Shown here: in pieces, positions 20,011-64,000 of the stretch
Numbering within the stretch: position 1 is the first letter of the stretch
How the letters are laid out: every line of letters begins with the position of its first letter
NCBI GenBank assembly: GCA_907163375.1
Contig: CAJQUW010012941.1
Coordinates: 1-64,000 of the forward strand
DNA from: Prostheceraeus crozeri
Taxonomy: Eukaryota; Platyhelminthes; Polycladida; Euryleptidae
Direction: 5' to 3'
DNA: 64,000 nt
Program-made: the position numbers and the translations under genes
Notes under the pieces: generated by a model
Databases searched by the model: none
What the model saw: only the letters and a program-made list of their open reading frames with translations
Told to the model about the DNA's origin: nothing

Positions 20011-21222
20011 TTAAAGGACTGCAAATTGAAATGATAGTGTTGGTCCTCTATGACGTTTAAGCATCCAAACTCCAAAACCAAAAGACACAATAATCATCAC
20101 TGCTGCTACTCCGATGACGATTGGCATAACATGCGTTGCAGGGCTTTCAACATGGAGGAATATGCTGGCGGTAGCCTTTCCACCATCATTGACAGCACTG
20201 CAGTTCCAATCTCCAGCGTGAGTGTCCTTTGCATTCAAGATGGTCAGTTGATATTGGAAGCTGGTTCCTGCTGTTTCAGAGATAAGGAACGACGTGGAGT
20301 CATTTTTGATTCTGACTCCATCCTTCCACCAAGACAGTGCACCAGTGGGATCAGAGAAGACATGGCACACAAGAGTGACATTGTCTCCAGCCTTTGCGGT
20401 GATGTTTGAGATGTTGGCTGTGACTTCTGGAGTGCATTGAAAGTCCTCAGGTTTAAGATCTGGAACTGGCTTGTTTTTAAGTCGAGCTGGAGAAGCGCAT
20501 TTCCCGAAATGTTTACGCAAGCTGTGTACAAGCATTATACGCTCAATTGACCAGGCATGCAACCATCGAAGTCGACAGTCACATTGCCATGGATTTCCTC
20601 TGACATCTAATTGTTTCAGCCTCATCGTGTTCAGATCCTCTTCCATCTGTTCTGGAAGTGTTGTGAGGTTGTTGTGTCCAAGAAAAATCTTTCCTAATGT
20701 CCGCAAAATGCCAGAAAATGAATGTTTGTGCAATTTCAAACCTCCAATTGTGCTTCTGAGATCAATACGCCTAAGATTCTTGAAATTCTTGAACCAATAA
20801 TTTGGAATCGTTCTAAGAGGATTTCTATCGAGATATAATCTCTCAAGACTTGGAATTGAGGTGAAAGCAGATGCATTTAATCCTTTGCCAATCGTCAGGC
20901 GGTTTGAAGTGAGCCATAGGTGCGTCAGACGTCTAAGTGGTTTGAGCGCTCCTGAACTAATTGTCCGAATTTCATTGTGGTTGAGATATAGAAGCATCAA
21001 GCATGACTTTTCCCAAGTCTTGAATGAATTGTTTGTTAATTTTGATATTCTATTGTGATGAAGATCAAGCTCTCTCACTGCTCCCCATTGATTACTTGGT
21101 ACAGCTGTCAAATTTTGGTAAATACAATTCACTGCTCCTCGAACTTGCGGACATCCATCCTCTACTCCTGTTCCTGCATACACAGCAGCGAAGAGAAAAA
21201 GGATTTTCATCAATTGAGACAT
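20011..21222 (-). CDS. LRR-Ig single-pass membrane protein, copy 1
   Basis: Predicted type I cell-surface protein of 403 residues. In order: signal peptide (about 1-18, MSQLMKILFLFAAVYAG); Cys-containing LRR N-cap; about six leucine-rich repeats (for example VRELDLHHN, LERLYLDRN); LRR C-cap from NPWQCDCRLRWL to about DFQC; one Ig domain with the Cys...WWKDG...DWNCSA pattern; a transmembrane helix at about 368-390; a short basic tail. Many N-glycosylation sequons lie in the ectodomain. Function is not known; LRR-Ig proteins act in adhesion or recognition. The tail ends at FQFAVL because a CAA codon seen in copy 2 is TAA here, removing six residues. The coding region lies in a single exon, and a 5' acceptor at 21268-21271 precedes it. 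Confidence 0.85.
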   Translation of the reverse strand: MSQLMKILFLFAAVYAGTGVEDGCPQVRGAVNCIYQNLTAVPSNQWGAVRELDLHHNRISKLTNNSFKTWEKSCLMLLYLNHNEIRTISSGALKPLRRLTHLWLTSNRLTIGKGLNASAFTSIPSLERLYLDRNPLRTIPNYWFKNFKNLRRIDLRSTIGGLKLHKHSFSGILRTLGKIFLGHNNLTTLPEQMEEDLNTMRLKQLDVRGNPWQCDCRLRWLHAWSIERIMLVHSLRKHFGKCASPARLKNKPVPDLKPEDFQCTPEVTANISNITAKAGDNVTLVCHVFSDPTGALSWWKDGVRIKNDSTSFLISETAGTSFQYQLTILNAKDTHAGDWNCSAVNDGGKATASIFLHVESPATHVMPIVIGVAAVMIIVSFGFGVWMLKRHRGPTLSFQFAVL

Positions 21223-21267
21223 TTCCTCGAGAATTTAGAGAATCGTCGTCGAAAGTGACGAAATTAT

Positions 21268-23655: not shown

Positions 23656-24690
23656 TCAAAATGAACATTCAGTAAAGTTACAATTACTGAAGATCAATCT
23701 TGCGGGTTGAGGATTGCCAAGCTGAATTGTATCCATTTTTTGGTCTTCAAGCAACATGACGTCCTCTTGTCGTTGGGTACTCGTCTGTGTTTGTGAATGA
23801 TGCATGAGAGGCTCTGATTCAATTCGAGGTAGGGCGGGGATCAATGATTGAGGCTGATTGTTGGATTGGCTCAAAGATCCATAAAGTGCGCCTGACATCT
23901 TCACTTCGAAATGTTCATGTTGAATGTAACATCTATCGGAAGACTTATTGATTCTTCCAGTTTTCTTTTCCGCACTTCTGCAGGAATACCACCTTGTATT
24001 AACCTCACTTTGCACGACCTCCGTAAACTTGTGTTGCTATAATATGTGTCATCTGAGCATACTGCTGACATGAATTCACGTGTAACCTTTGTGCACTCCC
24101 ATAGGAGAAGACTTGTAGCAGTATCAGATTTGATTTGGCTGCTGGGTAATGAGCCTAGGTAGAACGCTGTGCATCCTTTCCTACCACCAGTTTCTGGAAG
24201 ATGCCGCATGTATTCCTTGTATAGAGACACCACGCATCTTGTCGGATCATCTTGGTTTTGATAAGCTCGTGTGTGCTTCTGTTCCATTCTGGTACAATTC
24301 AGTCCGAAGCGCTTGTTCTTCGACATGTTTTCGGTGTATTCAAGGTATTATCTTCCGGCGTCAACTTTAATTTTTATTTGTTCATTTTCTCCGCACTGTT
24401 GGTTTCGATGCTCTTGGCAAGCTCTTAGGCTAAAATGCAAGCCAATGTGGTATAATAGTGTCTTCACCAATTTGTCGGGGTCAGAGATTCCGAAGCCACC
24501 AATTTCCCATAATTTCGTCTAAACTCTTCAAAACTTTTGGAACATCATCAAGTCGAACTCGCCATTCACTTAACCATAAATTGAACAAACGCATAACCCA
24601 ATTCATCTTGCTGATCGTATTCTTACAGTGACTGTTCTGGATGTCATCTTGAATTTCGTCATTCGATACGGCATGGAATCGTGACTGCAT
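23656..24690 (-). pseudogene. Crypton-type tyrosine-recombinase-like remnant
   Basis: Minus-strand frames follow the order of tyrosine-recombinase-like proteins of the Crypton/ZMYM/QRICH1 (DUF3504) group. An N-terminal helical part (VSNDEIQDDIQ, NTISKMNWVMRLFNLWL) is followed by a middle block (QNQDDPTRCVVSLYKEYM, AFYLGSL) and the catalytic-region helix (NTSLRRSCKVRLIQGGIP), which in family members reads NHSLRATxxTRLFQAG. After a frameshift near 23990 comes TGRINKSSDRCYIQHEHFEVK, corresponding to the TGHxS...Y box. The usual TGH is TGR here, so a catalytic His is missing. Separate frames and the lost residue mark it as broken. Whether the source is a mobile Crypton or a domesticated host gene cannot be decided here. 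Confidence 0.6.
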
Positions 24691-38325: not shown

Positions 38326-39522
38326 TTAATCCACATTTCTATTTTGAAGTACTGCAAATTGAAATGACAGTGTTGGTCCTCTACGACGTTTAAGCATCCA
38401 AACTCCAATACCAAAAGACACAATAATCATCGCTGCTGCTACTCCGATGACGATTGGTATAACATGCGTTGAAGGGCTTTCAATTTGGAGGAATATACTG
38501 GCGGTAGCCTTTCCACCATCATTGACAGCACTACAGTTCCAATCTCCAGCATCAGCGTCCTTTGCATTCAAGATGGTCAGTTGGTATTGGAATCGGGTTC
38601 CTGCTGTTTGAGAGAGAAGGAACCACGTGGAGTCATTTTTGATTCTGACTCCATCCTTCCACCAAGACAGTGCACCAATGGGATCGGAGAAGACATGACA
38701 GACAAGAATGACATTGTCTCCAGCCTTTGCGGTGATGTTTGAGATGTTGACTGTGACTTCTGGAGTGCATTGAAAGTCTTTAGATCTAAGATAGAGAAGT
38801 GGTCTGTTTTTTAGTCGCATTGGAGAAGCGCATACTTCAGGATTCTTTTCATAAATTCTATGTTTCCTTGATAACAAGACATGCAACCCTCGAAGTCGAC
38901 AGTCACAATGCCATGGATTGTTATAGACATAGAAAAACATAACCTTTAGATCCATCTCTTGTGGAAGTGTCGTGAGGTTGTTGTTTGGAAGAAGAAGGGT
39001 TTGTAATTCACTTAATCCAGAGAAGGAATGTTTGTGCAATTTCAAACCTCCAACTGTACTTCCGACGTTTAGACGCCTAAGTTGAGTCAAATACATGAAC
39101 CAATAATTCGGAATTGTTCCAAGGGGATTGTCATCGAGTTTTAGCCACTTCAGAGATGGAATGAAGGCTGATGCATTTAATCTTTTGCCAATCGTCAAGA
39201 GGTTTGACGTGAGAAACAGAAACTCAAGGCTTCTTAGTGGTTTGAAAGCTCCTGAACTAATTGTCCGAATTTCATTGTAACTGAGATCAAGCGTCTCCAG
39301 GCCTGACTTTTCCCAAGTTGTGAATGAGCTGTTTGTTAATTTTGATATTTTGTTGTTACCAAGATGAAGATGGTCCACTCTTCCCCACTGATTCCTTGGT
39401 ACAGCTTTCAAATTTCGGCATTCAACATGACTGTCTATGGGATTTCTTCGACATCCATCCTCTGCACTTGATCCTGAACACACAACAACAAACAGAAAGA
39501 GAATTTCCATCAATTGAGGCAT
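38326..39522 (-). CDS. LRR-Ig single-pass membrane protein, copy 2
   Basis: 398 residues, same layout as copy 1: signal peptide (MPQLMEILFLFVVVCSG), Cys-rich N-cap (DGCRRN...VECRNLKAVP), about six LRRs, C-cap (NPWHCDCRLRGL to DFQC), Ig domain (WWKDG, DWNCSAVNDGG), transmembrane helix and a tail ending LQNRNVD. The start is the ATG at 39520-39522, aligned with copies 1 and 3; an upstream GTG at 39528 should not be used. The LRR and C-cap parts differ strongly from copies 1 and 3, while the Ig and transmembrane parts are nearly the same. The Ig cysteines and LRR caps are intact, so it may be functional. Ligand unknown. Confidence 0.85.
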   Translation of the reverse strand: MPQLMEILFLFVVVCSGSSAEDGCRRNPIDSHVECRNLKAVPRNQWGRVDHLHLGNNKISKLTNSSFTTWEKSGLETLDLSYNEIRTISSGAFKPLRSLEFLFLTSNLLTIGKRLNASAFIPSLKWLKLDDNPLGTIPNYWFMYLTQLRRLNVGSTVGGLKLHKHSFSGLSELQTLLLPNNNLTTLPQEMDLKVMFFYVYNNPWHCDCRLRGLHVLLSRKHRIYEKNPEVCASPMRLKNRPLLYLRSKDFQCTPEVTVNISNITAKAGDNVILVCHVFSDPIGALSWWKDGVRIKNDSTWFLLSQTAGTRFQYQLTILNAKDADAGDWNCSAVNDGGKATASIFLQIESPSTHVIPIVIGVAAAMIIVSFGIGVWMLKRRRGPTLSFQFAVLQNRNVD

Positions 39523-39904
39523 TTTCACGAGAATTTCAGAGAATCGTCGCCGAAAGTGACGAAATTATCTGAAAATGACAGAAAAGACAAATGTTAATGA
39601 ACAGAAATGAAAATTGGAAGCGTCATTTCTATAAACATTGAAATGTCATTTCATTTTATCATCTTCGGATCTTCATTGTCCTAAAACCTGTCTTTCGGAC
39701 CATGTGCTTTCAAAGAACATGTTTCCGGAAATTCTTGCTTTTGTATATTTTGTTTTCCCTCATATTGACATGCTGCTTATGGAGGGTAATGAATATTGGC
39801 TTTGATGAGATGATGCCTCCTGTCATGTGTGTCCTTCGCTGATATTTAGCTGGATTTGACGGTCACTAACTGTGCGTACATTCATGCAATAATGCTGATG
39901 ACCA

Positions 39905-41030: not shown

Positions 41031-43860
41031 TTCCCCACAACCTCCCGGCCTCTCTCCTCGTACCGCTCACTTCCCACAACCTCCCGGCCCCTCTCATCGC
41101 ACCGCTCACTTCCCACAACCTCTCGGCCCCTCTCCTCGTACCGCTCACTTCCCACAACCTCCCGGCCCATCTCCTCATACCGCTGACTTCCCACAACCTC
41201 CAGGCCCCTCTCATCGCAACGCTCACTTCCCACAACCTCACGGCCTCTCTCATCGCACCGCTCACTTCCCACAACCTCCCGGCCTCTCTCATCGCAACGC
41301 TCACTTCCCACAACCTCCCAGCCTCTCTCCTCGCACCGCTCACTTCCCACAACCTCCCGGCCCCTCTCCTCGCACCGCTCACTTCCCACAACTTCCCGGC
41401 CCCTCTCATCGCACCGCTCACTTCCCACAACCTCCCGGCCTCTCTCCTCGCACCGCTCACTTCCCACAACCTCCCGGCCTCTCTCCTCGTACCGCTCACT
41501 TCCCACAACCTCCCGGCCTCTCTCATCGCACCGCTCACTTCCCACAACCTCCCGGCCTCTCTCATCGCACCGCTCACTTCCCACAACCTCCCGGCCTCTC
41601 TCATCGCACCGCTCACTTCCCACAACCTCCCGTCTCCTCTCATCGCACCGCTCACTTCCCACAACCTCCCGGCCTCTCTCCTCGCACCGCTCACTTCCCA
41701 CAACCTCCCGGCCCATCTCCTCATACCGCTGACTTCCCACAACCTCCCGGCCCCTCTCATCGCACCGCTCACTTCCCACAACCTCCCGGCCTCTCTCCTC
41801 GAACCGCTCACTTCCCACAACCTCCCGGCCCCTCTCCTCGCACCGCTCACTTCCCACAACCTCCCGGCCCCTCTCATCGCACCGCTCACTTCCCACAACC
41901 TCCCGGCCTCTCTCCTCGCACCGCTCACTTCCCACAACCTCCCGGCCCCTCTCATCGCACCGCTCACTTCCCACAACCTCCCGGCCCATCTCCTCATACC
42001 GCTCACTTCCCACAACCTCCCGGCCTCTCTCCTCGAACCGCTCACTTCCCACAACCTCCCGGCCTCTCTCCTCATACCGCTCACTTCCCACAACCTCCCG
42101 GCCCCTCTCCTCGCACCGCTCACTTCCCACAACCTCCCGGCCTCTCTCCTCATACCGCTCACTTCCCACAACCTCCCGGCCTCTCTCCTCATACCGCTCA
42201 CTTCCCACAACCTCCCGGCCCCTCTCCTCATACCGCTCACTTCCCACAACCTCCCGGCCTCTCTCCTCATACCGCTCACTTCCCACAACCTCCCGGCCTC
42301 TCTCCTCGCACCGCTCACTTCCCACAACCTCCCGGCCCCTCTCCTCGCACCGCTCACTTCCCACAACCTCCCGGCCCCTCTCACCGCACCGCTCACTTCC
42401 CACAACCTCACGGCCCCTCTCATCGCACCGCTCACTTCCCACAACCTCCCGGCCTCTCTCCTCGCACCGCTCACTTCCCACAACCTCCCGGCCCCTCTAC
42501 TCATACCGCTCACTTCCCACAACCTCCCGGCCTCTCTCCTCATACCGCTCACTTCCCACAACCTCCCGGCCTCTCTCCTCGCACCGCTCACTTCCCACAA
42601 CCTCCCGGCCTCTCTCCTCATACCGCTCACTTCCCACAACCTCCCGGCCCCTCTCCTCGCACCGCTCACTTCCCACAACCTCCCGGCCTCTCTCCTCATA
42701 CCGCTCACTTCCCACAACCTCCCGGCCTCTCTCCTCATACCGCTCACTTCCCACAACCTCCCGGCCCCTCTCCTCATACCGCTCACTTCCCACAACCTCC
42801 CGGCCTCTCTCCTCATACCGCTCACTTCCCACAACCTCCCGGCCTCTCTCCTCGCACCGCTCACTTCCCACAACCTCCCGGCCCCTCTCATCGCACCGCT
42901 CACTTCCCACAACCTCCCGGCCCCTCTCATCGCACCGCTCACTTCCCACAACCTCCCGGCCCCTCTCATCGCACCGCTCACTTCCCACAACCTCCCGGCC
43001 TCTCTCCTCGCACCGCTCACTTCCCACAACCTCCCGGCCTCTCTCCTTGAACCGCTCACTTCCCACAACCTCCCGGCCTCTCTCCTCGCACCGCTCACTT
43101 CCCACAACCTCCCGGCCCCTCTCATCGCACCGCTCACTTCCCACAACCTCCCGGCCTCTCTCCTCATACCGCTCACTTCCCACAACCTCCCGGCCTCTCT
43201 CCTCGCACCGCTCACTTCCCACAACCTCCCGGCCTCTCTCCTCATACCGCTCACTTCCCACAACCTCCCGGCCTCTCTCCTCATACCGCTCACTTCCCAC
43301 AACCTCCCGGCCCCTCTCCTCATACCGCTCACTTCCCACAACCTCCCGGCCTCTCTCCTCATACCGCTCACTTCCCACAACCTCCCGGCCTCTCTCCTCG
43401 CACCGCTCACTTCCCACAACCTCCCGGCCTCTCTCCTCGCACCGCTCACTTCCCACAACCTCCCGGCCTCTCTCCTCGCACCGCTCACTTCCCACAACCT
43501 CCCGGCCTCTCTCCTCATACCGCTCACTTCCCACAACCTCCCGGCCCCTCTCCTCATACCGCTCACTTCCCACAACCTCCCGGCCTCTCTCCTCATACCG
43601 CTCACTTCCCACAACCTCCCGGCCTCTCTCCTCGCACCGCTCACTTCCCACAACCTCCCGGCCCCTCTCCTCGCACCGCTCACTTCCCACAACCTCCCGG
43701 CCCCTCTCCTTGCACCGCTCACTTCCCACAACCTCCCGGCCTCTCTCCTCGCACCGCTCACTTCCCACAACCTCCCGGCCTCTCTCCTCGCACCGCTCAC
43801 TTCCCACAACCTCCCGGCCTCTCTCCTCGCATCGCTCACTTCCCACAACCTCTCGGACAT
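41031..43860 (+). repeat. 39-bp minisatellite, about 72 units
   Basis: The unit is CTCACTTCCCACAACCTCCC followed by GGCCTCTCTCCTCGTACCG, strictly 39 bp, so phase is kept in every frame. Units vary at a few positions (TCT/CCT/CAT after GGCC; CTCG/ATCG/CTCA; A/T before ACCG). A block of six to seven unit types recurs at about 42060-42330, 42600-42870 and, in part, 43220-43430, a sign of higher-order duplication. The array lies between TSDs of elements A and B. Long open frames run through it on both strands because the unit lacks stops and is a multiple of three; the longest (+) starts inside element A, so I do not annotate a gene. Confidence 0.95.
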
Positions 43861-54356: not shown

Positions 54357-55592
54357 TTAATCCGTATTTCCATTTTGAATGTCTGCTAATTGAAATGATC
54401 TAGTGGGTACTGTGCGGCGTTTAAACATCCTTACACCAATACCAAAAGACACAATAATCATCACTGCTGCTGCTACTCCGACGACGATTGGCATTTCATG
54501 CGTTGCAGGGCTTTCAACATGGAGGAATATGCTGGCGGTAGCCTTTCCACCATCATTGACAGCACTGCAGTTCCAATCTCCAGCATGAGCGTCCTTTGCA
54601 TTCAAGATGGTCAGCTGGTATTGGAAGCTGGTTCCTGCTGTTTGAGAGATAAGGAAAGACGTGGAGTCATTTCTGATTCTGATTCCATCCTTCCACCAAG
54701 ACAGTGCGCCAATGGGATCAGAGAAGACACCGCAGACAAGAGTGACATTGTCTCCAGCATTTGCGGTGATGTTTGAGATGTTGGCTGTGATTTCTGGAGT
54801 GCATTGAAAGTCTTTAGATCTAAGATCTGGAACTGGCTTGTTTTTAAGTCGAGCTGGAGAAGCGCATTTCCCGAAATGTTTACGCAAGCTGTGTAGAAGC
54901 ATTATACGCTCAAATGACCAGGCATGCAACCATCGAAGTCGACAGTCACATTGCCATGGATTTCCTCTGACATCTAATTGTTTCAGCCTCATCGTGTTCA
55001 GATCCTCTTCCATCTCTTCTGGAAGTGTTGTGAGGTTGTTGTGTCCAAGAGTAATCTTTCTTAATGTCAACAAAATGCCAGAAAATGAATGTTTGTGCAA
55101 TTTCAAACCTCCAATTGTGTTTCTGAGATCAATACGCCTAAGATTCTTGAAATTCTTGAACCAATAATTCGGAATTGTTCCAAGAGGATTACGGCTAAGG
55201 TCTAGCAACGTCAGATCTGGAATTAGAATGAAAGCGGATGCATCTAATCCTTTGCCAATCGTCAAACGGTTTGAAGAGAGATACAGATCCTCCAGGCTTC
55301 TCAGTGGTTTGAAAGCTCCTGAACTAATTGTCCGAATTTCATTGTGGTTGAGATAAAGCATCTCCAGGCCTGACTTTTCCCAAGTTGTGAATGAGTTGTT
55401 TGTTAATTTTGATATTTTATTGTAATCAAGTTCAAGGCTGCCCACTTCTCCCCATCGATTACTTGGTACAGTTGTCAAATTTAGGGAATTACATTCAACA
55501 ACTGAATGGTAAACTCTTCGACATCTACCATCTGCACTTGTTCCTGCATACACAGCAGCAAAGAGAAAGAGGATTTCCATCAATTGAGACAT
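54357..55592 (-). CDS. LRR-Ig single-pass membrane protein, copy 3
   Basis: 411 residues from MSQLMEILFLF: signal peptide, N-cap (DGRCRRV...VECNSLNLTTVP), about six LRRs, C-cap (NPWQCDCRLRWLHAWSFERI to DFQC), Ig domain (CGVFSD, WWKDGIRI, DWNCSAVNDGG), transmembrane helix (MPIVVGVAAAVMIIVSFGIG) and tail ending FQLADIQNGNTD. A longer frame beginning at 55631 adds 13 residues, but it crosses the conserved TTTTCAG/ATAATTT acceptor at 55619, so I use the ATG at 55592. LRR 5 through the C-cap is almost identical to copy 1 although their N-caps differ. No promoter region like that of copies 1 and 2 was found upstream. Confidence 0.87.
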   Translation of the reverse strand: MSQLMEILFLFAAVYAGTSADGRCRRVYHSVVECNSLNLTTVPSNRWGEVGSLELDYNKISKLTNNSFTTWEKSGLEMLYLNHNEIRTISSGAFKPLRSLEDLYLSSNRLTIGKGLDASAFILIPDLTLLDLSRNPLGTIPNYWFKNFKNLRRIDLRNTIGGLKLHKHSFSGILLTLRKITLGHNNLTTLPEEMEEDLNTMRLKQLDVRGNPWQCDCRLRWLHAWSFERIMLLHSLRKHFGKCASPARLKNKPVPDLRSKDFQCTPEITANISNITANAGDNVTLVCGVFSDPIGALSWWKDGIRIRNDSTSFLISQTAGTSFQYQLTILNAKDAHAGDWNCSAVNDGGKATASIFLHVESPATHEMPIVVGVAAAVMIIVSFGIGVRMFKRRTVPTRSFQLADIQNGNTD

Positions 55593-55619
55593 TTCCTCGA
55601 CAAAATTATCTGAAAATGA

Positions 55620-56329
55620 CACAAAAGACAAAAGTTAATGAGCAGAAATGAAAATTGGAAGCGTCATTTCTATAAACATTAAAATGTCATTTCATTTATC
55701 ATTTCTATATCTTTATTGCGTAAAACCTATCTTCCAGATATTTGCCTTCAAAGAACATGTTTCCGGAATTTCTTGTTTTTGTATATTTTGTTTTCCCTCA
55801 TATTGACATGCTGCTTATGGAGGGTAATGAATATTGGCTTTGATGAGATGATGGCTGCTGTCATGTGTGTCCTCCGCTGATATTTGGTTGGATTTAATAG
55901 TCACAAATTGTACGTGCATTCATGCAATGATGCTGACAGGGATGCGGAGTCCTATCATTTTGAAAGGACTCCGACTCTGACTGCGGGTGGTAAGTATATC
56001 AGCCTTAGTTCTGGTGACCTACATCATAGATCATTATAGGCTTACCTGAGCCTGATTTTAGTGATCAAATCAATCATTTTCTACGAAAGTTTACCAACTG
56101 TGCATATCACTTGTTGGTGTGTGTTTCACACGGGTTTTCTCCATTCTCTACCAGACAGGAAAATCCCCATCCTTCATCAAAAAATATGAGTACATGTAGT
56201 TGACCAGGTGACGGGAGATCATCTTTCTGAGCAAGTTATACAAAGTACATTGTAATTAAAAATCTACTTTTCAGTTTAGGCCAATATAATCAGGTAAAAG
56301 TTAAAAGTATCGAAGAATGGCCTTCGGCG
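55620..56329. other. 5' flank of LRR-Ig gene 3
   Basis: 55620-55940 resembles the flanks of copies 1 and 2, then similarity stops within ATGCTGACAGGGATGCGG. 55943-55982 has a small hairpin (GGAGTCCT...AGGACTCC). No other gene is visible. Confidence 0.55.
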
Positions 56330-58325: not shown

Positions 58326-58351
58326 ATATATATATATATATATATATATAA
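58326..58351. repeat. (TA)n microsatellite at PLE edge
   Basis: Pure TA run adjoining the 5' edge of the PLE. Confidence 0.9.
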
Positions 58352-58382
58352 GTAGTGAAAACTGTGCCCTACTTGCCAGGGA

Positions 58383-58600
58383 TAGGTACATGGATAGGTA
58401 CATGTAAAAATTTAGTGTTATCAATAGGAACATGGATAGGTACATGTAAAGTTTAGTGTTATCAATAGGAACATGGATAGGTACATGGATAGGTACATGT
58501 ATACTTTAGTTATCGATAGGCACACGGATAGGTACATGTATAATTCAGTGTTATCAATAGGAACTTGTATGAGATCTGTTTTACTGGATAGGTACATGTG
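58383..58600 (+). repeat. Degenerate tandem repeat built on GGATAGGTACATG
   Basis: Alternating 12-bp GGATAGGTACAT words and 26-30 bp spacers (AATTTAGTGTTATCAATAGG-like), about four long units. Open frames here repeat Tyr/Leu/Met and are not genes. Confidence 0.85.
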
Positions 58601-58861
58601 TTTGGTACACTGTGTTTGGGAACGTCTATGATCGAACTTGTGTGGTTTGGTTCTGAGCACTTGGGTACGTACCGATAGACGTCCGTTGTTTGATTTTGAA
58701 TGGGTTTGCTCAATTGCGACTATTGTGACAATTATTTTTAATGTAGCACTATTTAGATGTGAAACTTTACTGTGCAGTTATGATTTAGTTGCTCCCCAAT
58801 AAGAAAACCAATTCCAGAACTATGTTTAAAATGAAAAGACAAGAGATTTACAATGTAAGTT

Positions 58862-59155
58862 TAATTTAAGCGTGAAAAATAAATGAGGGGTGCAAATCAC
58901 GTCCCTCAGGCGACTCCATGATCTTCAAGAAGTCATCACACCACTCATGGAATGTCGGATTTTTACTAAGTCATGGTCACATTCGTGTACCGGACACTTC
59001 ACCGGTAGTCCATTCCGCCTTTGAAGTGCAGAGACAGTTAAGGTCTTCCATAGGGCCACTTTGCAGCCGCAAGACAGATGCATGGTCATGTCCAAATGAC
59101 CTCCAATAATGACTTGGCTGTCATTTTGAAAATAAAATAATGGCTTTGAGGACAT
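58862..59155 (-). CDS. Small Cys/His-rich protein, family unknown
   Basis: Starts MSSKPLFYFQND at 59155, about 55-65 bp below a TATA box on the same strand. The strict frame ends at 58925 (76 residues) and contains MHLSCGCKVALWK and GLPVKCPVHECDHDL, a CxC...CxxxxC...H spacing that could bind zinc. After the T5 run at 58960-58964 (A5 on the coding strand), another frame reads NPTFHEWCDDFLKIMESPEG and continues to about 58862. That looks more protein-like than the annotated end, so the gene may run through a slip or a one-base indel. Divergently paired with the gene at 59380. No family recognised; role unknown. Confidence 0.45.
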
Positions 59156-59210
59156 GCTTCTTCTTATGGAACGTTGAGGATAAGTACTTAACAGTTTGGA
59201 ACAATGACAT

Positions 59211-59298
59211 CCTTTATATAGTTATATATATTCTTTAGGGAAGTTCGGTACCTCTCTGATTGGCTGTTAGGATTTCCTTTGTTTAAAAAGTATATAAG
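59211..59298. promoter_or_regulatory. Divergent promoter with two TATA boxes and an inverted CCAAT box
   Basis: TATATAAAGG on the minus strand (59211-59220) serves the left gene; TATATAAG on the plus strand (59291-59298) serves the right gene. CTGATTGGC (59256-59264), an NF-Y-type inverted CCAAT box, lies between them. The whole intergenic space between the two start codons is about 225 bp. Confidence 0.6.
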
Positions 59299-59379
59299 TC
59301 CGAGGTTTGTACCAATTCTTATCAAAGGTTCTAATCCTCACGTTTACAAGTTACAATTATTTTAAATCTACAAGTCTAA

Positions 59380-59847
59380 ATGGATCGCAAACAGAAAGCC
59401 GCAGTTGAGAACGGTACTGCTGATCGTACCACTTCGCCAGTGGAACGTACCACTACACCTCCCCAATCTCCGATGGAGCGATCGACAACACCAAACGAGC
59501 CGGTGGTGTTCACCCAAGCCCCTGCATCGCCCGACTACTCGAGTGATGATGGTGAGGATAGTGACGTATCAATCGAGACGATGCGTCACATGAATAAGAA
59601 GTCCATGCGAACGCCACTTTATGGACGGGTCACGGTCAAAGTCAAGAACGCCCCGAAAAAGTACCACACCAAACGGGTGTTCATGAGGATGGAGCCGAAC
59701 GAGCGGAACCTCACAACCGCTCTCGAATTTTCGGTCATCGACCTTGACACACCACGTCGCTGTCCCTGTGCGCCCAAGAAGACCAGGATCCATGTTCAAG
59801 TGGACTTGAAAAAACTTGTACCCTTTCCTTACCTTGATGACATTTAG
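59380..59847 (+). CDS. 155-residue acidic Ser/Thr/Pro-rich protein, family unknown
   Basis: Starts MDRKQKAAVENG, about 82 bp after the TATA box at 59291. Residues 15-65 are low complexity, with repeated TTSP/TTTPP/STTPNEP words and an acidic SSDDGEDSDVS patch, probably disordered and open to phosphorylation. Residues 75-155 are more ordered: RTPLYGRVTVKVKNAPKKYH, ALEFSVIDLDTPRRCPCAPK, then HVQVDLKKLVPFPYLDDI. Codon use is richer in G+C at third positions than the surrounding AT-rich DNA, which supports coding. No intron is needed. I do not recognise the family. It resembles the downstream multi-exon gene in having an acidic Ser-rich part. Confidence 0.55.
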   Translation: MDRKQKAAVENGTADRTTSPVERTTTPPQSPMERSTTPNEPVVFTQAPASPDYSSDDGEDSDVSIETMRHMNKKSMRTPLYGRVTVKVKNAPKKYHTKRVFMRMEPNERNLTTALEFSVIDLDTPRRCPCAPKKTRIHVQVDLKKLVPFPYLDDI

Positions 59848-60104
59848 TGTGTTTTTTTCTTAATCTCTTTATTTAATATTCATTTGTATATATGAACAGA
59901 CTTGTTTTATCATTTCACAAATCGGTCTTCAATTAAGGTCTGAATGGGAAAGGGGAATAACTATCTACAATTAATGATGTTCAATAACTGAATTGAAACA
60001 AAAAAAAATCAAGTATGAAGACTTCAACTTGAAATAAATAGGAACATATAACTTTTAAAGAAACAGTTATGTTGTTAATTTTAAAATGCTTGTAGCAGTC
60101 CAGG

Positions 60105-60425
60105 ATGATATCATACATGTGTCATACACGAGACCATAAGAATGAGAATGAAAAGACCTTTAGAATGATATAAGGTATGTACCTATTCGATGGGAAAATC
60201 CTAGTTGTATGCAACTGTATGCAAGCAGACAAATGTTAGATTTTTAAATTCACTAAGTTTTTAGCCCATTCTTTAAAGACATGTAGCTCTCTAGTTATAT
60301 GTCATACATGTGTCATACAATACACCATTAGAATCAGCATGAAAAGAGCATTCGAATGATATATTGTATGTACCCATTTGATGAAAAAATCCTAGTTGTA
60401 TGCATCGGTATGCAACTTGAAAAAT
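60105..60425 (+). repeat. Tandem duplication of about 190 bp
   Basis: CATACATGTGTCATACA ... AATCCTAGTTGTATGCA occurs at about 60110-60225 and again at about 60305-60415 with moderate divergence. Confidence 0.75.
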
Positions 60426-60529
60426 TCCAAGTTTTTTTACAAAAATGACTAAGTTTACAAATTTTCAAAGTTAAAGTTTTACAACCAAAAATGATCATAA
60501 TATACAAACCTCTACACTTGACCTTGACC

Positions 60530-60600
60530 TTGACCTTAGACCTGACCTTGACCTTTGACCTTCATACACTTCATACACTTCATACACGGCGGGGGGGGGG
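60530..60600 (+). repeat. Short tandem words and poly-G run
   Basis: GACCTT repeated about seven times (60518-60560), CTTCATACA repeated three times, then a G run at 60590-60600. Confidence 0.8.
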
Positions 60601-60604
60601 CCTC

Positions 60605-60700
60605 AAAATTTCTCGGGCGCTTCGCGCCCTCGAAATTTTTCGGATTATAGGGTAAATAAATTTTCTCGTGCGCTTCGCGCACTCGAAAATTTATTTACCC
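60605..60700. repeat. Two adjacent CpG-rich hairpins
   Basis: 60605-60640 folds around GGGCGC-TTC-GCGCCC, and 60650-60700 is a 51-base palindrome (GGGTAAATAAATTTTC arms, centre TGCGCTTCGCGCA). The pair looks like a small foldback element or its end. Confidence 0.75.
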
Positions 60701-60735
60701 ATGGGTTCCGGGTGCCATAGATACTGTTCTTGCTT

Positions 60736-60818
60736 CCCTAACCCTAACCCTAACCCTAACCCTAACCCTAACCTTAACCCTAACCCTAACCCTAACCTTA
60801 ACCCTAACCCTAACCCTA
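60736..60818 (+). repeat. Interstitial telomere-type repeat (CCCTAA)n
   Basis: About 13 units of CCCTAA with two CCTTAA variants, beginning directly 35 bp after the hairpin pair. TTAGGG is the usual telomere word of most animals other than arthropods and nematodes, which helps place the organism. Confidence 0.9.
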
Positions 60819-61173
60819 GTATTTTAATTTTGGCGCGAAATTCAAATTTTCGAAATTTAGCGCTTAATTCAAATTTAATGTTCTATTCAAATCACACGTT
60901 TATATCTTCAATTCAAATATGAATCATTATATGACTATTAATAATAACATGTATATCAAATAATACATCAGTCCATCAGTTCATATTACTTTGAATTCAC
61001 TCTACTGTTTACATGTAGAAATCTTTCAACACATATGATGGCACTTCCATTTCTAAGGTTAAAAATAAACCAGCTGTTCCAATTCTTGTTTGAGTTATCA
61101 ATTTTGTTTAACCGTACCAATTCCAGGATGTGATGTCATAAGGTCTTTGTTCATAGTTGCTTTGTCAATTTCA

Positions 61174-61181
61174 TATATAAA
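61174..61181 (+). promoter_or_regulatory. TATA box, distal, of the seven-exon gene
   Basis: TATATAAA. About 100 bp on, a donor-like GAA/GTGAGTTTC (61281) could join to the acceptor CCTATATAG at 61914-61922, giving a 5' untranslated exon. A second TATATAAAT at 61862-61870 lies about 55 bp before the ATG and could be an alternative promoter. Confidence 0.4.
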
Positions 61182-61924
61182 GAAGTTGCACACAACGAAT
61201 TTTCACTCATTTTCAAATTATTTAGTGTCCATAACAGACGTCGTTCTTCGTTCCTCCGTTCTCCGGTTCTTATTACAATTCTGAAGTGAGTTTCATTGTC
61301 ATGTTGTGCTACTTTATAGGATATTCGAGAGTAGGAACATTATTAAGTTTTTATAACCAAATAGCTTTAAATATAGAAGCTTGTGTTTTTAGGATAGGAA
61401 CACTTTATGTTATATTATTAACCATGTTTTTTTTAATTTTTCATCCTATATTAAGTCACTGAGCGAGAGACATGAATATATCAGTTTAAATGTAAGTGTA
61501 TTTGAATCAACAAGATTTTCACAGTTTGTAAATAAATAAAAGATACCTAAATAAAGCCTTCATCCATTTTAAATATTCAGTCTGTCATCTGCTAACAGAT
61601 GTATAAAATTCAAGCTTGTTTAATTAAACAAATTGAGGATTGGTTGAAATTTTCGAAATTTCAGTTTCATTTCATTAAATTAATTTCGAAATTAAATAAT
61701 AGTAAATCAGCTGTTTCCAAATTTCAACTCTTCTTATGAGCTAACCCTTTTCGAATAAATATCTAATTTTCGACTTTCGGTTTCAATTTCAACTTCAAAT
61801 TTTATTTCTTTCTCAGATTTCTCCAATATGAAAGTAGCACTTAATAGACCTTTGATGATGGTATATAAATGCGTTCTCGTTTTACAAGAGATTAAATTAT
61901 AATCAATTTTTTTCCTATATAGAA

Positions 61925-64000
61925 ATGGTCCGACAAGAAAGTATTGCGCGACAACGGCTGATCTTTCACTACTGTGAAACATGCCGACTGCCTGTTCGTC
62001 ATGCCAACAAGAGTGGCCACAAAGACTGCATATTCAAAGAGGATTTCACATACCTCTATTGCTTAAGCTGCAAAACATATGAGAGGAGCAACGACAAGGT
62101 CAACAGCGACTCAGCAAAAGCCTTCATTGTCAAACACACGCCCTGTGCCCAACAGAATGGCCGGAAAGGCATCAACCTTACCTCCAAGTCAGAGAAAAGG
62201 AAATTGGAGAGGCTTTTTAATAAGGAAAGGCCGACTGAAGGCGTGCTCTCACAGGTGGACGAGCCTGAGACAAAGAAAGCCCCCAAGTCCCGAGCACCTA
62301 AGAAGGTCCCCAAGTCTCGAGAATTTATTGATGAGACTTTGAGTGATTTTGAGGTAAGTGTAGTCAATTCTAAATGCTAACTTGAACGGACAACTGACTC
62401 ACAGTTGACAAAAAGTACTGCTTCCTTTAGATTAAAATAAATTTGTTGTTAACACATTTCAGGACATGGTGATGCCCCCACCGAAGAAAGCCAAGGTGTT
62501 GGTGCAGAAGAAACTGGTCGTTCAAGATGTGAGATTCTATTTACTCAGGTTAGTAATCGTGTGCATAAACTAAATCAATATTTCATAAATATTTCAGTGT
62601 GAGGTGCCTCGACCGCTGAAAGTCAGTTTCCAAGACAATAATGCGGTGGAAAACTTGCGAAAGGTAAGAAATTAATTTGCTTGTTACTTCTTAATGTGAA
62701 ATTGAACATGAATTTTTATTTTCAGCTGTTTCCAAGTGTCCAAAGGTATCCTGCAATACCTCGGTTGAATTCGCCGGAAAAGGAAACCATTTCAAGTCCC
62801 GTAAGTGTGATTTTCATGGTCTACGATTCGATATCAGACAACAATACCTGGAAAAAAACTTTACATGTATATAGTCTATGTCTATATTAATTCTCATTAA
62901 TATCTATTTAGTTATAAAAACATTATCACATTTTCGCTGCAGGCTGTACGATCTTTGTCCCTTAAAAGACATCAGCGGAGCTTTCTGTCTACGCCGGCGA
63001 CCACCACATCTATGGAGGATAACGAGGAGAGGCCCTACTCCATCCGTGAATCATCGGGCGATTCCTCGTCATCTGATGACGACGTCTCCACCACGTCGTC
63101 TCCAACATCCTCATCCGATGACGATAATTCGGTTGCAAATGTAAGTTTAATGCTTAGATGACTGCATCAGCAGAGAACTTTTCCATTGTAATTTAGAAAC
63201 CCACTTGAGTAAAAATTTATTAATCTGTAATAGATCAATTTATCTTCTAGAATGATTCGATGGTTCTTTCGGAGGACGAAGGTGGATCAAATCGAGGGAC
63301 AATCGAGCTGAAGGTATGTGAAATTCATATTTGGAGTTAATAAATGTCAACAAGTTAATTTTCATTTATGTAATTGAATTTACATAGTGTTAATTTTAAT
63401 TTTGATAAATGTTAACAATTGCAAATAGTTCATAAACAATTGTTTCTTTTCGTTTGCAGGACTCCGTGATGCATGCATCACAGGAGGTCTCCTTCAGCAA
63501 CATCCGGGCATCCCCGAGCTGGAGTGTCCGCCTGCCGCCGTCCCCAATGATCTGCTTGGCTCCATCATCCCCTGCACGTCTTCCCTTGCCGCTATCTCCT
63601 CCGAACCCATTACCGACGCCAAGTGCAGCTCCTTCCTCCCCGGTAGTACTTCCCACAACACCTCCCCCAGTTGCAGCTCTACCAACGTCGGATGTGACGG
63701 CTCCTCTCCCAGTGCGGGATTATAACGTCGACTTGGACGCAACCTCGACAGAAGAGGATGTACAGAACAAGTTACGTCTCTGCCAGGAGCGCCTACAGCA
63801 GGCAGAGGAGCGGGAGAAGAAAATGAAGGAGGAGAACAGAGGCTTGATTGAATCTGTGAGGAACCTAACACAATCAAATCTCCTGTTGGCCTCCCAGGTT
63901 TCGAACAGTCGCATTAATGAAAAGGAAACTTTAATGCACATTGACTGCATGAACAATGTAATTAGAAAAGTGAGACTGACTCACATGAACGATTTCAGCG
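61925..64000 (+). CDS. Seven-exon gene of unknown family, runs off right edge
   Basis: Coding exons joined by GT-AG introns: 61925-62353, 62463-62528, 62598-62663, 62726-62800, 62943-63140, 63251-63313 and 63460 to the edge. Every junction is phase 0, and the chain gives 479 residues without a stop. Residues 16-75 have CETCRLPVRH...HKDC and YCLSCKTYE...HTPC, a likely zinc-binding N-terminus. Residues 95-140 are Lys-rich with two KxPKSR words. Exon 5 has an acidic Ser tract (SSGDSSSSDDDVSTTSS). Exon 7 is Pro-rich, then a coiled coil of about 90 residues (from EEDVQNKLRLCQERLQQAEE). Exons are G+C-richer than introns. Nuclear or chromatin-related use is possible from the composition, but no family is recognised. 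Confidence 0.65.

Follow-up and report, generated by a model that had tools for sequence, protein, structure and literature searches.

What kind of locus holds, side by side within 5 kb, three genes which cannot be placed in any family? This question is raised by the right end of a 64,000-nt stretch of DNA from the polyclad flatworm Prostheceraeus crozeri (contig CAJQUW010012941.1, positions 1 to 64,000; the whole stretch is called the window here). A reading of the sequence alone had described a compact cluster with TATA-box promoters and had considered a host gene cluster, a large mobile element or integrated foreign DNA. We searched for copies in the 2.05-Gb assembly (14,165 contigs) and found that the three genes form the accessory region at the left end of a young Maverick/Polinton. 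Thus, the mobile, virus-like option was borne out by the element ends, the target duplications and the copies, while the host cluster was not. Further, the third gene very probably is a swappable cassette, which exists in several versions.

Extent, ends and core genes of the element

The element is 20,847 bp long and extends from window position 58351 to base 79197 of the same contig. Its left 5,650 bp (58351..64000, plus strand) are in the window and its end lies 15.2 kb past it; the start of the unit proposed earlier, 58862, must be corrected accordingly. An inverted repeat beyond 64 kb, which had been suggested as a check, was indeed found and ends at contig base 79197. The element has the ends AGTAGT…ACTACT, with AGTAGTG at 58351 and the mirror image ending at contig base 79197. 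The terminus AGTAGTGAAAACTGTGCC was present in seven of the eight gene 2 loci examined first (it is missing at L008). Target duplications of 6 bp are perfect in two of the three other copies with both ends read, namely cacgta/cacgta (C1266) and cacaat/cacaat (C13038). The window copy's own target site is located within an AT repeat and is hence uninformative in this respect. The terminal repeats, the end motif, the 6-bp target duplications and an integrase with a chromodomain make it virtually certain that the unit is a Maverick/Polinton. Another endogenous virus (herpesvirus-like) was the first idea, which was abandoned once polymerase, integrase and capsid-type frames emerged.

The integrase frame (L010) matched rve with 50.6 bits (cut-off 32.6, E 2.4e-13) and Chromo with 38.5 bits (cut-off 25.1, E 1.1e-9); it comprises 322 aa, or 285 aa from the first ATG, and may lack its start. 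The polymerase is a single open frame of 1285 aa with the sequences YADIE, YLKLDV, YLDVNNLY, KLKNNSLYG and GGDTDS, which we take to be family-B polymerase motifs. It also contains an Endonuclease_7 match (E 1.6e-5) and C2H2 fingers; a DNA polymerase profile was found neither in Pfam (residues 225-1285) nor in NCBIfam up to E 10. OTU-like motifs were seen on the polymerase by eye (NDCFLYA and AHYCG), of which a pattern test matched the second and not the first, and there was no OTU profile among the profile matches of the element's frames. An ATPase-like frame has the motif GPSQSGKT and a PHROG ATPase match (E 7e-4), a protease frame is weakly C48-like (Peptidase_C48, E 0.036, under the cut-off), and capsid candidates, which are without a profile match, were assigned by gene order and by eye. 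The right accessory end carries a RING-finger gene (L010:5229-5741, minus strand; zf-C3HC4_3, E 1.7e-10). The frames form two modules on opposing strands, which meet near contig position 69300: the polymerase is on the plus strand, and the integrase, ATPase-like and capsid-type frames are on the minus strand.

Genes 1 and 2 and their promoter

All three predicted genes were confirmed, including the seven coding exons of the third (Table 1). Purifying selection acts on the accessory genes 1 and 2. The ratio of nonsynonymous to synonymous differences (pN/pS) was 0.18 for gene 1 (24 copies selected for an intact frame) and 0.21 for gene 2 (26 copies; 205 pairs of equal length), and therefore both look like real proteins kept during element multiplication. 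The small Cys/His-rich minus-strand gene exists, but its form in the window is frameshifted: of 25 other distinct copies, 21 have an open frame of 96 aa and three a shorter one, and in one the anchor was not found. Its length of 76 aa in the window is by itself at chance level, since an equally long frame occurred in 91 of 200 shuffles. For gene 2, the best 150 of 2,193 first-look candidates were 95-100% identical, and 149 of these 150 were stop-free.

In line with the sequence-only reading, which recognised no family, none of the three window proteins reached the Pfam cut-off. The similarity of gene 1 to zf-RAG1 is weak (E 0.01, below this cut-off), and the best hint at a RING/RBR ligase was ARIH1 at a mere E of 1.2. 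The profile searches that had been recommended for the three proteins thus revealed no family, and the structure-based search with gene 3 gave no fold match.

Genes 1 and 2 point away from each other and share what was described as a 225-bp promoter with an NF-Y-type box. The box was found as ATTGG, and the spacer has 224 bp. Its elements are conserved among 28 copies: the TATA box of gene 1 in 28 of 28, that of gene 2 in 27 and the CCAAT box in all 28. A TATATAA box indeed precedes each of the three genes; the distances, given as 55-85 bp, were measured as 65 and 73 bp (gene 1), 89 bp (gene 2) and 63 bp (gene 3). This spacing is unusual, as had been supposed: the window contains 107 ATG frames that encode at least 60 aa, and these three genes are the only ones among them with a TATATAA at 41-100 bp upstream, for which the per-site chance is about 1.2%. 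The contrast in base composition was also reproduced, with a GC content of 0.52 for gene 2, 0.50 for gene 3 and 0.44 for gene 1, compared to 0.31 for the spacer.

Gene 3 exists in four old versions

To describe the diversity of gene 3, 20 copies were picked from the best 150 gene 2 matches in such a way that identity was spread. The version matrix consists of 18 copies and the window: L012 was added, and L019, L024 and L028 were left out (L019 and L024 are without gene 3 in the stretch examined, and L028 retains exon 1 alone). The gene 3 of each copy was either near to or far from that of the window. We found four versions, A (seven copies, the window included), B (two), C (six) and D (three), plus one A/D chimera. 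At the DNA level gene 3 is 90-98% identical within a version and 64-75% between versions (chimera excluded). The exon boundaries and phase 0 are common to all versions, and exon 6 is missing in D.

Between versions, exons 1 and 7 showed pS values of 0.64-0.91, so that synonymous sites are near saturation, and pN values of 0.08-0.25. The pS of up to 0.91 led us to consider selection for unlike codons, an idea which was rejected, since in each of the 24 comparisons more codons were shared than on average after shuffling. The near-saturation of pS, the low pN and the codon agreement together argue for old versions of a conserved protein. Chimeras inside gene 3 were also found: L025 is A/D, and L045 is B with a C-like last exon (95%).

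Gene 3 is exchanged between similar backbones

Between the inverted repeat and about 61650, identity to the window was 90-100% in most tiles; many older copies reached no more than 76-94% in the terminal repeat, in gene 1 and in the spacer. The left edge of the cassette differs by version and, like all its edges, is resolved no better than the length of the compared segments: it falls within 61381-61650 for D, 61651-61800 for C and 61801-61924 for B. In the tile comparison, version D diverged from 61351-61501 onward. On the right side, identity was restored to 96-100% in 64111-64225.

Among four elements whose 153-aa gene 2 proteins are identical, each has a different first exon of gene 3. Left of the cassette these elements are 97-100% identical to each other, the length-variable spacer aside; the window copy shows less identity to them in gene 1 (94-95%) and in this spacer. 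Beyond the cassette, the polymerase gene of D and C elements (L047, L048) is 99.5% identical to that of the window copy over 3.2 kb. One A and one B element were compared along nearly their whole length, and in this single pair only gene 3 stands out as unlike. Five successive pieces that start at 64,109 and reach the right end were 97.9, 99.3, 99.8, 99.4 and 95.9% identical, the last of which includes the terminal repeat; left of gene 3 the identity was 93-100% per tile, and inside it 69-80% (tiles with long matches).

In two sets of near-identical gene 2 copies, 15 of 19 and 16 of 17 could be linked to a version, and all four versions occur in each set. Altogether 31 of 36 were linked (A 2, B 12, C 8, D 9); missing links are expected, as the linking drew on the best-150 lists per version. 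In a tree of the left flanks of 22 copies, with L025 scored as A and L045 as B, the version changed 11 times, while the mean after shuffling was 11.2, and 118 of 200 shuffles needed no more changes. In this sample, the version therefore does not follow the backbone.

Promoter and protein of gene 3

The claim of a TATA promoter for each gene fits genes 1 and 2 and probably fails for gene 3. The box 63 bp before its ATG, TATATAA at 61862, is present in two A and two C copies and absent from two B and two D copies. In all eight copies, a pyrimidine-rich stretch is followed by an AG that stands two bases upstream of the ATG (in L012 a G precedes the AG). Further upstream, the region 61171-61380, which contains another TATATAA followed by a splice donor (Table 1), is 98.6-99.5% identical across five elements covering all four versions. 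The lack of the proximal box in these B and D copies, the AG in all eight copies and the constant TATATAA with donor favour the distal site. Judged from these motifs, it is more likely that gene 3 has its promoter at 61174 with a non-coding leader exon, and the TATA at 61862 probably lies in an intron and is no promoter. The leader exon would begin near 61204 and end at 61285. The predicted first intron would have 637 bp, and the left crossovers likely fall inside it.

The N-terminal part of the protein is marked by residues invariant among the four versions (C17, C20, H26, H32, C35, C46, C49, H71 and C74). Further on, the protein has basic stretches, a Ser/Asp-rich and Pro-rich middle and a conserved Cys/His end, as well as a coiled coil recognised by eye. 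On the basis of these features, chances are even that it is a nuclear regulator. Gene 3 stands directly before the polymerase gene.

We also considered a terminal protein. In Polintons, the terminal-protein domain is fused to the polymerase. Such a domain is named for a Polinton polymerase in PMC11071308. Since it belongs to the polymerase, and since the terminal repeats do not track the version, gene 3 is unlikely to be a terminal protein.

Copy number and searches for relatives

The genes of the element occur in hundreds of copies, and the recommended look for copies elsewhere in the genome was therefore rewarding. Among the best 150 exon 1 matches per version, 143 of 150 were at least 87% identical for A, 150 of 150 at least 95% for B, 150 of 150 at least 92% for C, and 134 of 150 at least 86% for D. 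Summed over versions, this gives at least 577 copies of gene 3 exon 1, which are exon copies and not complete elements. Inside the 64-kb window there is no second copy of the three genes.

Scans of viral contigs with the four-version exon 1 alignment, with genes 1 and 2, with the last exon of gene 3 and with the polymerase found no relative. Nor did scans of genome contigs with gene 2 or with exon 1 of gene 3, or a scan of phages with that exon; these scans need short exact patterns, which distant relatives can escape. A viral contig scan with gene 3 exon 1 reported one relative-encoding stretch and listed no locus.

Two unusual arrangements of copies were seen. At C5869:926425, 930336 and 934247 (G000), three gene 3 exon 1 copies are found on one strand exactly 3,911 bp apart, probably as a tandem array of a Maverick fragment. 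At C692:459040-463354 (L016), a Maverick breaks off in gene 3 and the left end of a second copy follows within about 10 bp; perhaps one Maverick was inserted into another.

Why are several versions of gene 3 maintained?

In the copies sampled, the four old versions of gene 3 have been moved among very similar backbones by recombination, with crossovers upstream of the coding part and just past the stop codon, and at least twice inside the gene. In the mechanism we propose, gene 3 would be a nuclear regulator, expressed from the constant upstream TATA promoter with its leader exon. The version of gene 3 would then set a compatibility or immunity group, so that rarity would be an advantage and several versions would stay numerous. 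This role is favoured by the presence of a single multi-version gene in a uniform element, by the numerous versions, by the chimeras, which indicate that exchange is possible, and by the position before the polymerase; we consider it possible, without calling it likely. Taken as a whole, an accessory end of a Maverick with a separately evolving gene 3 cassette, which would be a regulator and define an immunity group, is quite probably the best explanation of the locus.

Several observations weigh against this explanation. The near-whole-element comparison covers one pair of copies, and the similar abundance of the versions is a rough reading of the best-150 lists. The third copy with both ends read, C11768 (L001 and L041), has differing flanking 6-mers, cacgaa on the left and tgtgtt on the right; it is a possible recombinant of two copies. 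None of the polymerase, ATPase, protease or capsid profiles attained its curated cut-off, and the ATPase-like frame shares its strand with the integrase and is not, as in vertebrate Mavericks, part of the polymerase module. Gene 3 has no relative in Pfam or PDB, its structure models are poor (pLDDT 46.8 and 53.9), and a fold search with the model gave no match at E 0.001. Its exon 1 protein differs modestly between versions (78-83% identity to A), and over whole exons selection is purifying and not positive, which is weaker than an immunity or arms-race model predicts. Finally, only three of 11 aligned gene 3 copies (window, L018, L033) are free of a stop, a frameshift or a lost splice site; as the other eight are damaged, many copies seem to be decaying.

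Pressure from the host and a passive leftover are serious rivals to the immunity reading. In the first case, an antiviral protein or small-RNA silencing would hit gene 3, and versions imported from other Mavericks or species would escape. The near-saturation of synonymous sites with a kept protein fits DNA or RNA as the target, and vertebrate Mavericks have crossed between fish species according to PMC8097293. On the other hand, the rest of the element, which is mostly 97-100% identical between versions, would stay targeted, and the codon sharing above the random mean in each comparison gives no sign of selection for unlike DNA. We regard a host-driven diversity as possible, without calling it likely.

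Alternatively, four old lineages may have recombined and one backbone may have spread, with gene 3 left over because it was too unlike to pair. Unlike sequence is a barrier to gene conversion, and the age of the versions as well as the missing link between version and flank fit such a course. However, chimeras inside gene 3 do exist, gene 3 alone is left over in the one nearly whole-element pair, and all four versions are numerous, which makes a purely passive origin rather unlikely. A third rival, a group of ordinary host genes that evolve fast and use TATA promoters, would fit the lack of relatives seen from the window alone and the host-like splicing of gene 3. It is ruled out by the element ends and the copies: one 20.8-kb unit combines an integrase with terminal repeats and target duplications, and its copies are dispersed in hundreds.

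Returning to the immunity reading, its broadest form would be that animal Mavericks have compatibility groups, based on ancient versions of a spliced master regulator, on selection favouring rare versions and on recombination in the first intron, as an animal counterpart of phage immunity regions. This broad form is doubtful. The many similar copies, the purifying selection and the exchange among copies imply that the elements were active recently, and perhaps still are, and that they shared a cell, even though many copies are broken by now. One gene in four old versions within a uniform element points to a site of competition among elements or with the host, and it makes the mutual regulation of such elements testable in an animal.

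Comparison with known systems

In temperate phages, the regulator of the immunity region, which has version-specific DNA targets and blocks like elements, is swapped as a cassette between otherwise like elements. Cassette swapping is common to both systems, whereas the regulator role of gene 3 is putative and no operators were identified in the Maverick.

Mavericks are candidate viruses whose particles are unseen (Barreat and Katzourakis 2021, PMC8097293, also for the following). The element shares with animal Mavericks/Polintons the AGTAGT/ACTACT ends, the 6-bp duplications and inverted repeats of a few hundred bp. A size range of 12.7-24.6 kb, modules on opposite strands and terminal accessory regions are given there as well, as found here. 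In vertebrates, intact Mavericks are described as intronless; most genomes have few copies, whereas two contain hundreds of defective ones. Unlike these, the element described here has an accessory gene with six coding introns and four old versions, the ATPase-like frame on the other strand, and hundreds of very similar gene copies. Adintoviruses (PMC11071296) have in common with it the chromodomain integrase and the family-B-type polymerase frame. Their polymerase is defined by an N-terminal OTU-like domain, which here was seen by eye only, and their hexon is recognisable by BLASTP to the group; no virion or free genome of the present element is known.

Human cytomegalovirus likewise combines a conserved, recombining genome with deeply divided genotypes in some hyper-variable genes (PMC6167919). 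There, 21 genes are concerned, which mostly encode glycoproteins and whose genotypes reportedly do not recombine with each other; here it is one gene with a probably nuclear product and at least two chimeras. Accessory genes are also carried by the nematode Mavericks of Widen et al. (as related in PMC10680173), in which the cargo consists of captured host proteases and kinases; in our case, versions of one resident gene occupy one place. Topic searches of the literature on swapped or multi-version genes in Polintons turned up no case among the matches listed.

Other features of the window

The coordinates of the features of the element in the window are listed in Table 1. The CCCTAA repeats at 60736-60818, within the length-variable spacer, correspond to the vertebrate-type telomere repeat.

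Table 1. Positions of Maverick/Polinton features in the window
Feature	Position	Strand	Remarks
Left terminal inverted repeat	58351..58733	+	383 bp, 99.2% identity to right repeat, partly 12-bp sub-repeats
Gene 1, small Cys/His protein	58925..59155	-	window copy frameshifted, 76 aa
Divergent promoter of genes 1 and 2	59156..59379		224 bp; function predicted from sequence
Gene 1 TATATAA boxes	59222-59228 and 59214-59220	-	65 and 73 bp before ATG
ATTGG (CCAAT box)	59259-59263		between TATA boxes of genes 1 and 2
Gene 2 TATATAA box	59291-59297	+	89 bp before ATG
Gene 2	59380..59847	+	155 aa; N-terminal half acidic, Ser/Thr-Pro-rich
Length-variable spacer with simple-sequence block	60501..61170		CCCTAA repeats at 60736-60818
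Probable gene 3 promoter and non-coding leader exon	61174..61285	+	TATATAA 61174-61180, GTGAGT donor at 61286
Swappable cassette	61651..64000	+	ends near contig 64110, ~42 bp beyond gene 3 stop
Gene 3, version A	61925..64000+	+	501 aa; seven coding exons, GT-AG, all introns phase 0
Gene 3 coding exons 1-4	61925-62353, 62463-62528, 62598-62663, 62726-62800	+	
Gene 3 coding exons 5-7	62943-63140, 63251-63313, 63460-64068	+	end beyond window

Rfam and tRNA scans of the whole window gave no matches. Outside the Maverick, Penelope-like and Tc1 elements were recognised, partly by eye. A fragment at 23901-24344 (minus strand) is DUF3504-like (E 1.9e-6, just under the cut-off) and presumably Crypton-like. 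Three similar single-frame genes for LRR-Ig receptor-like proteins are located at 20011-21234, 38326-39564 and 54357-55634 on the minus strand, 16-18 kb apart; the middle one was scanned. A 39-bp tandem repeat at 41034-43856 comprises 72 copies, is GC-rich with extreme GC skew, and is open in several frames.

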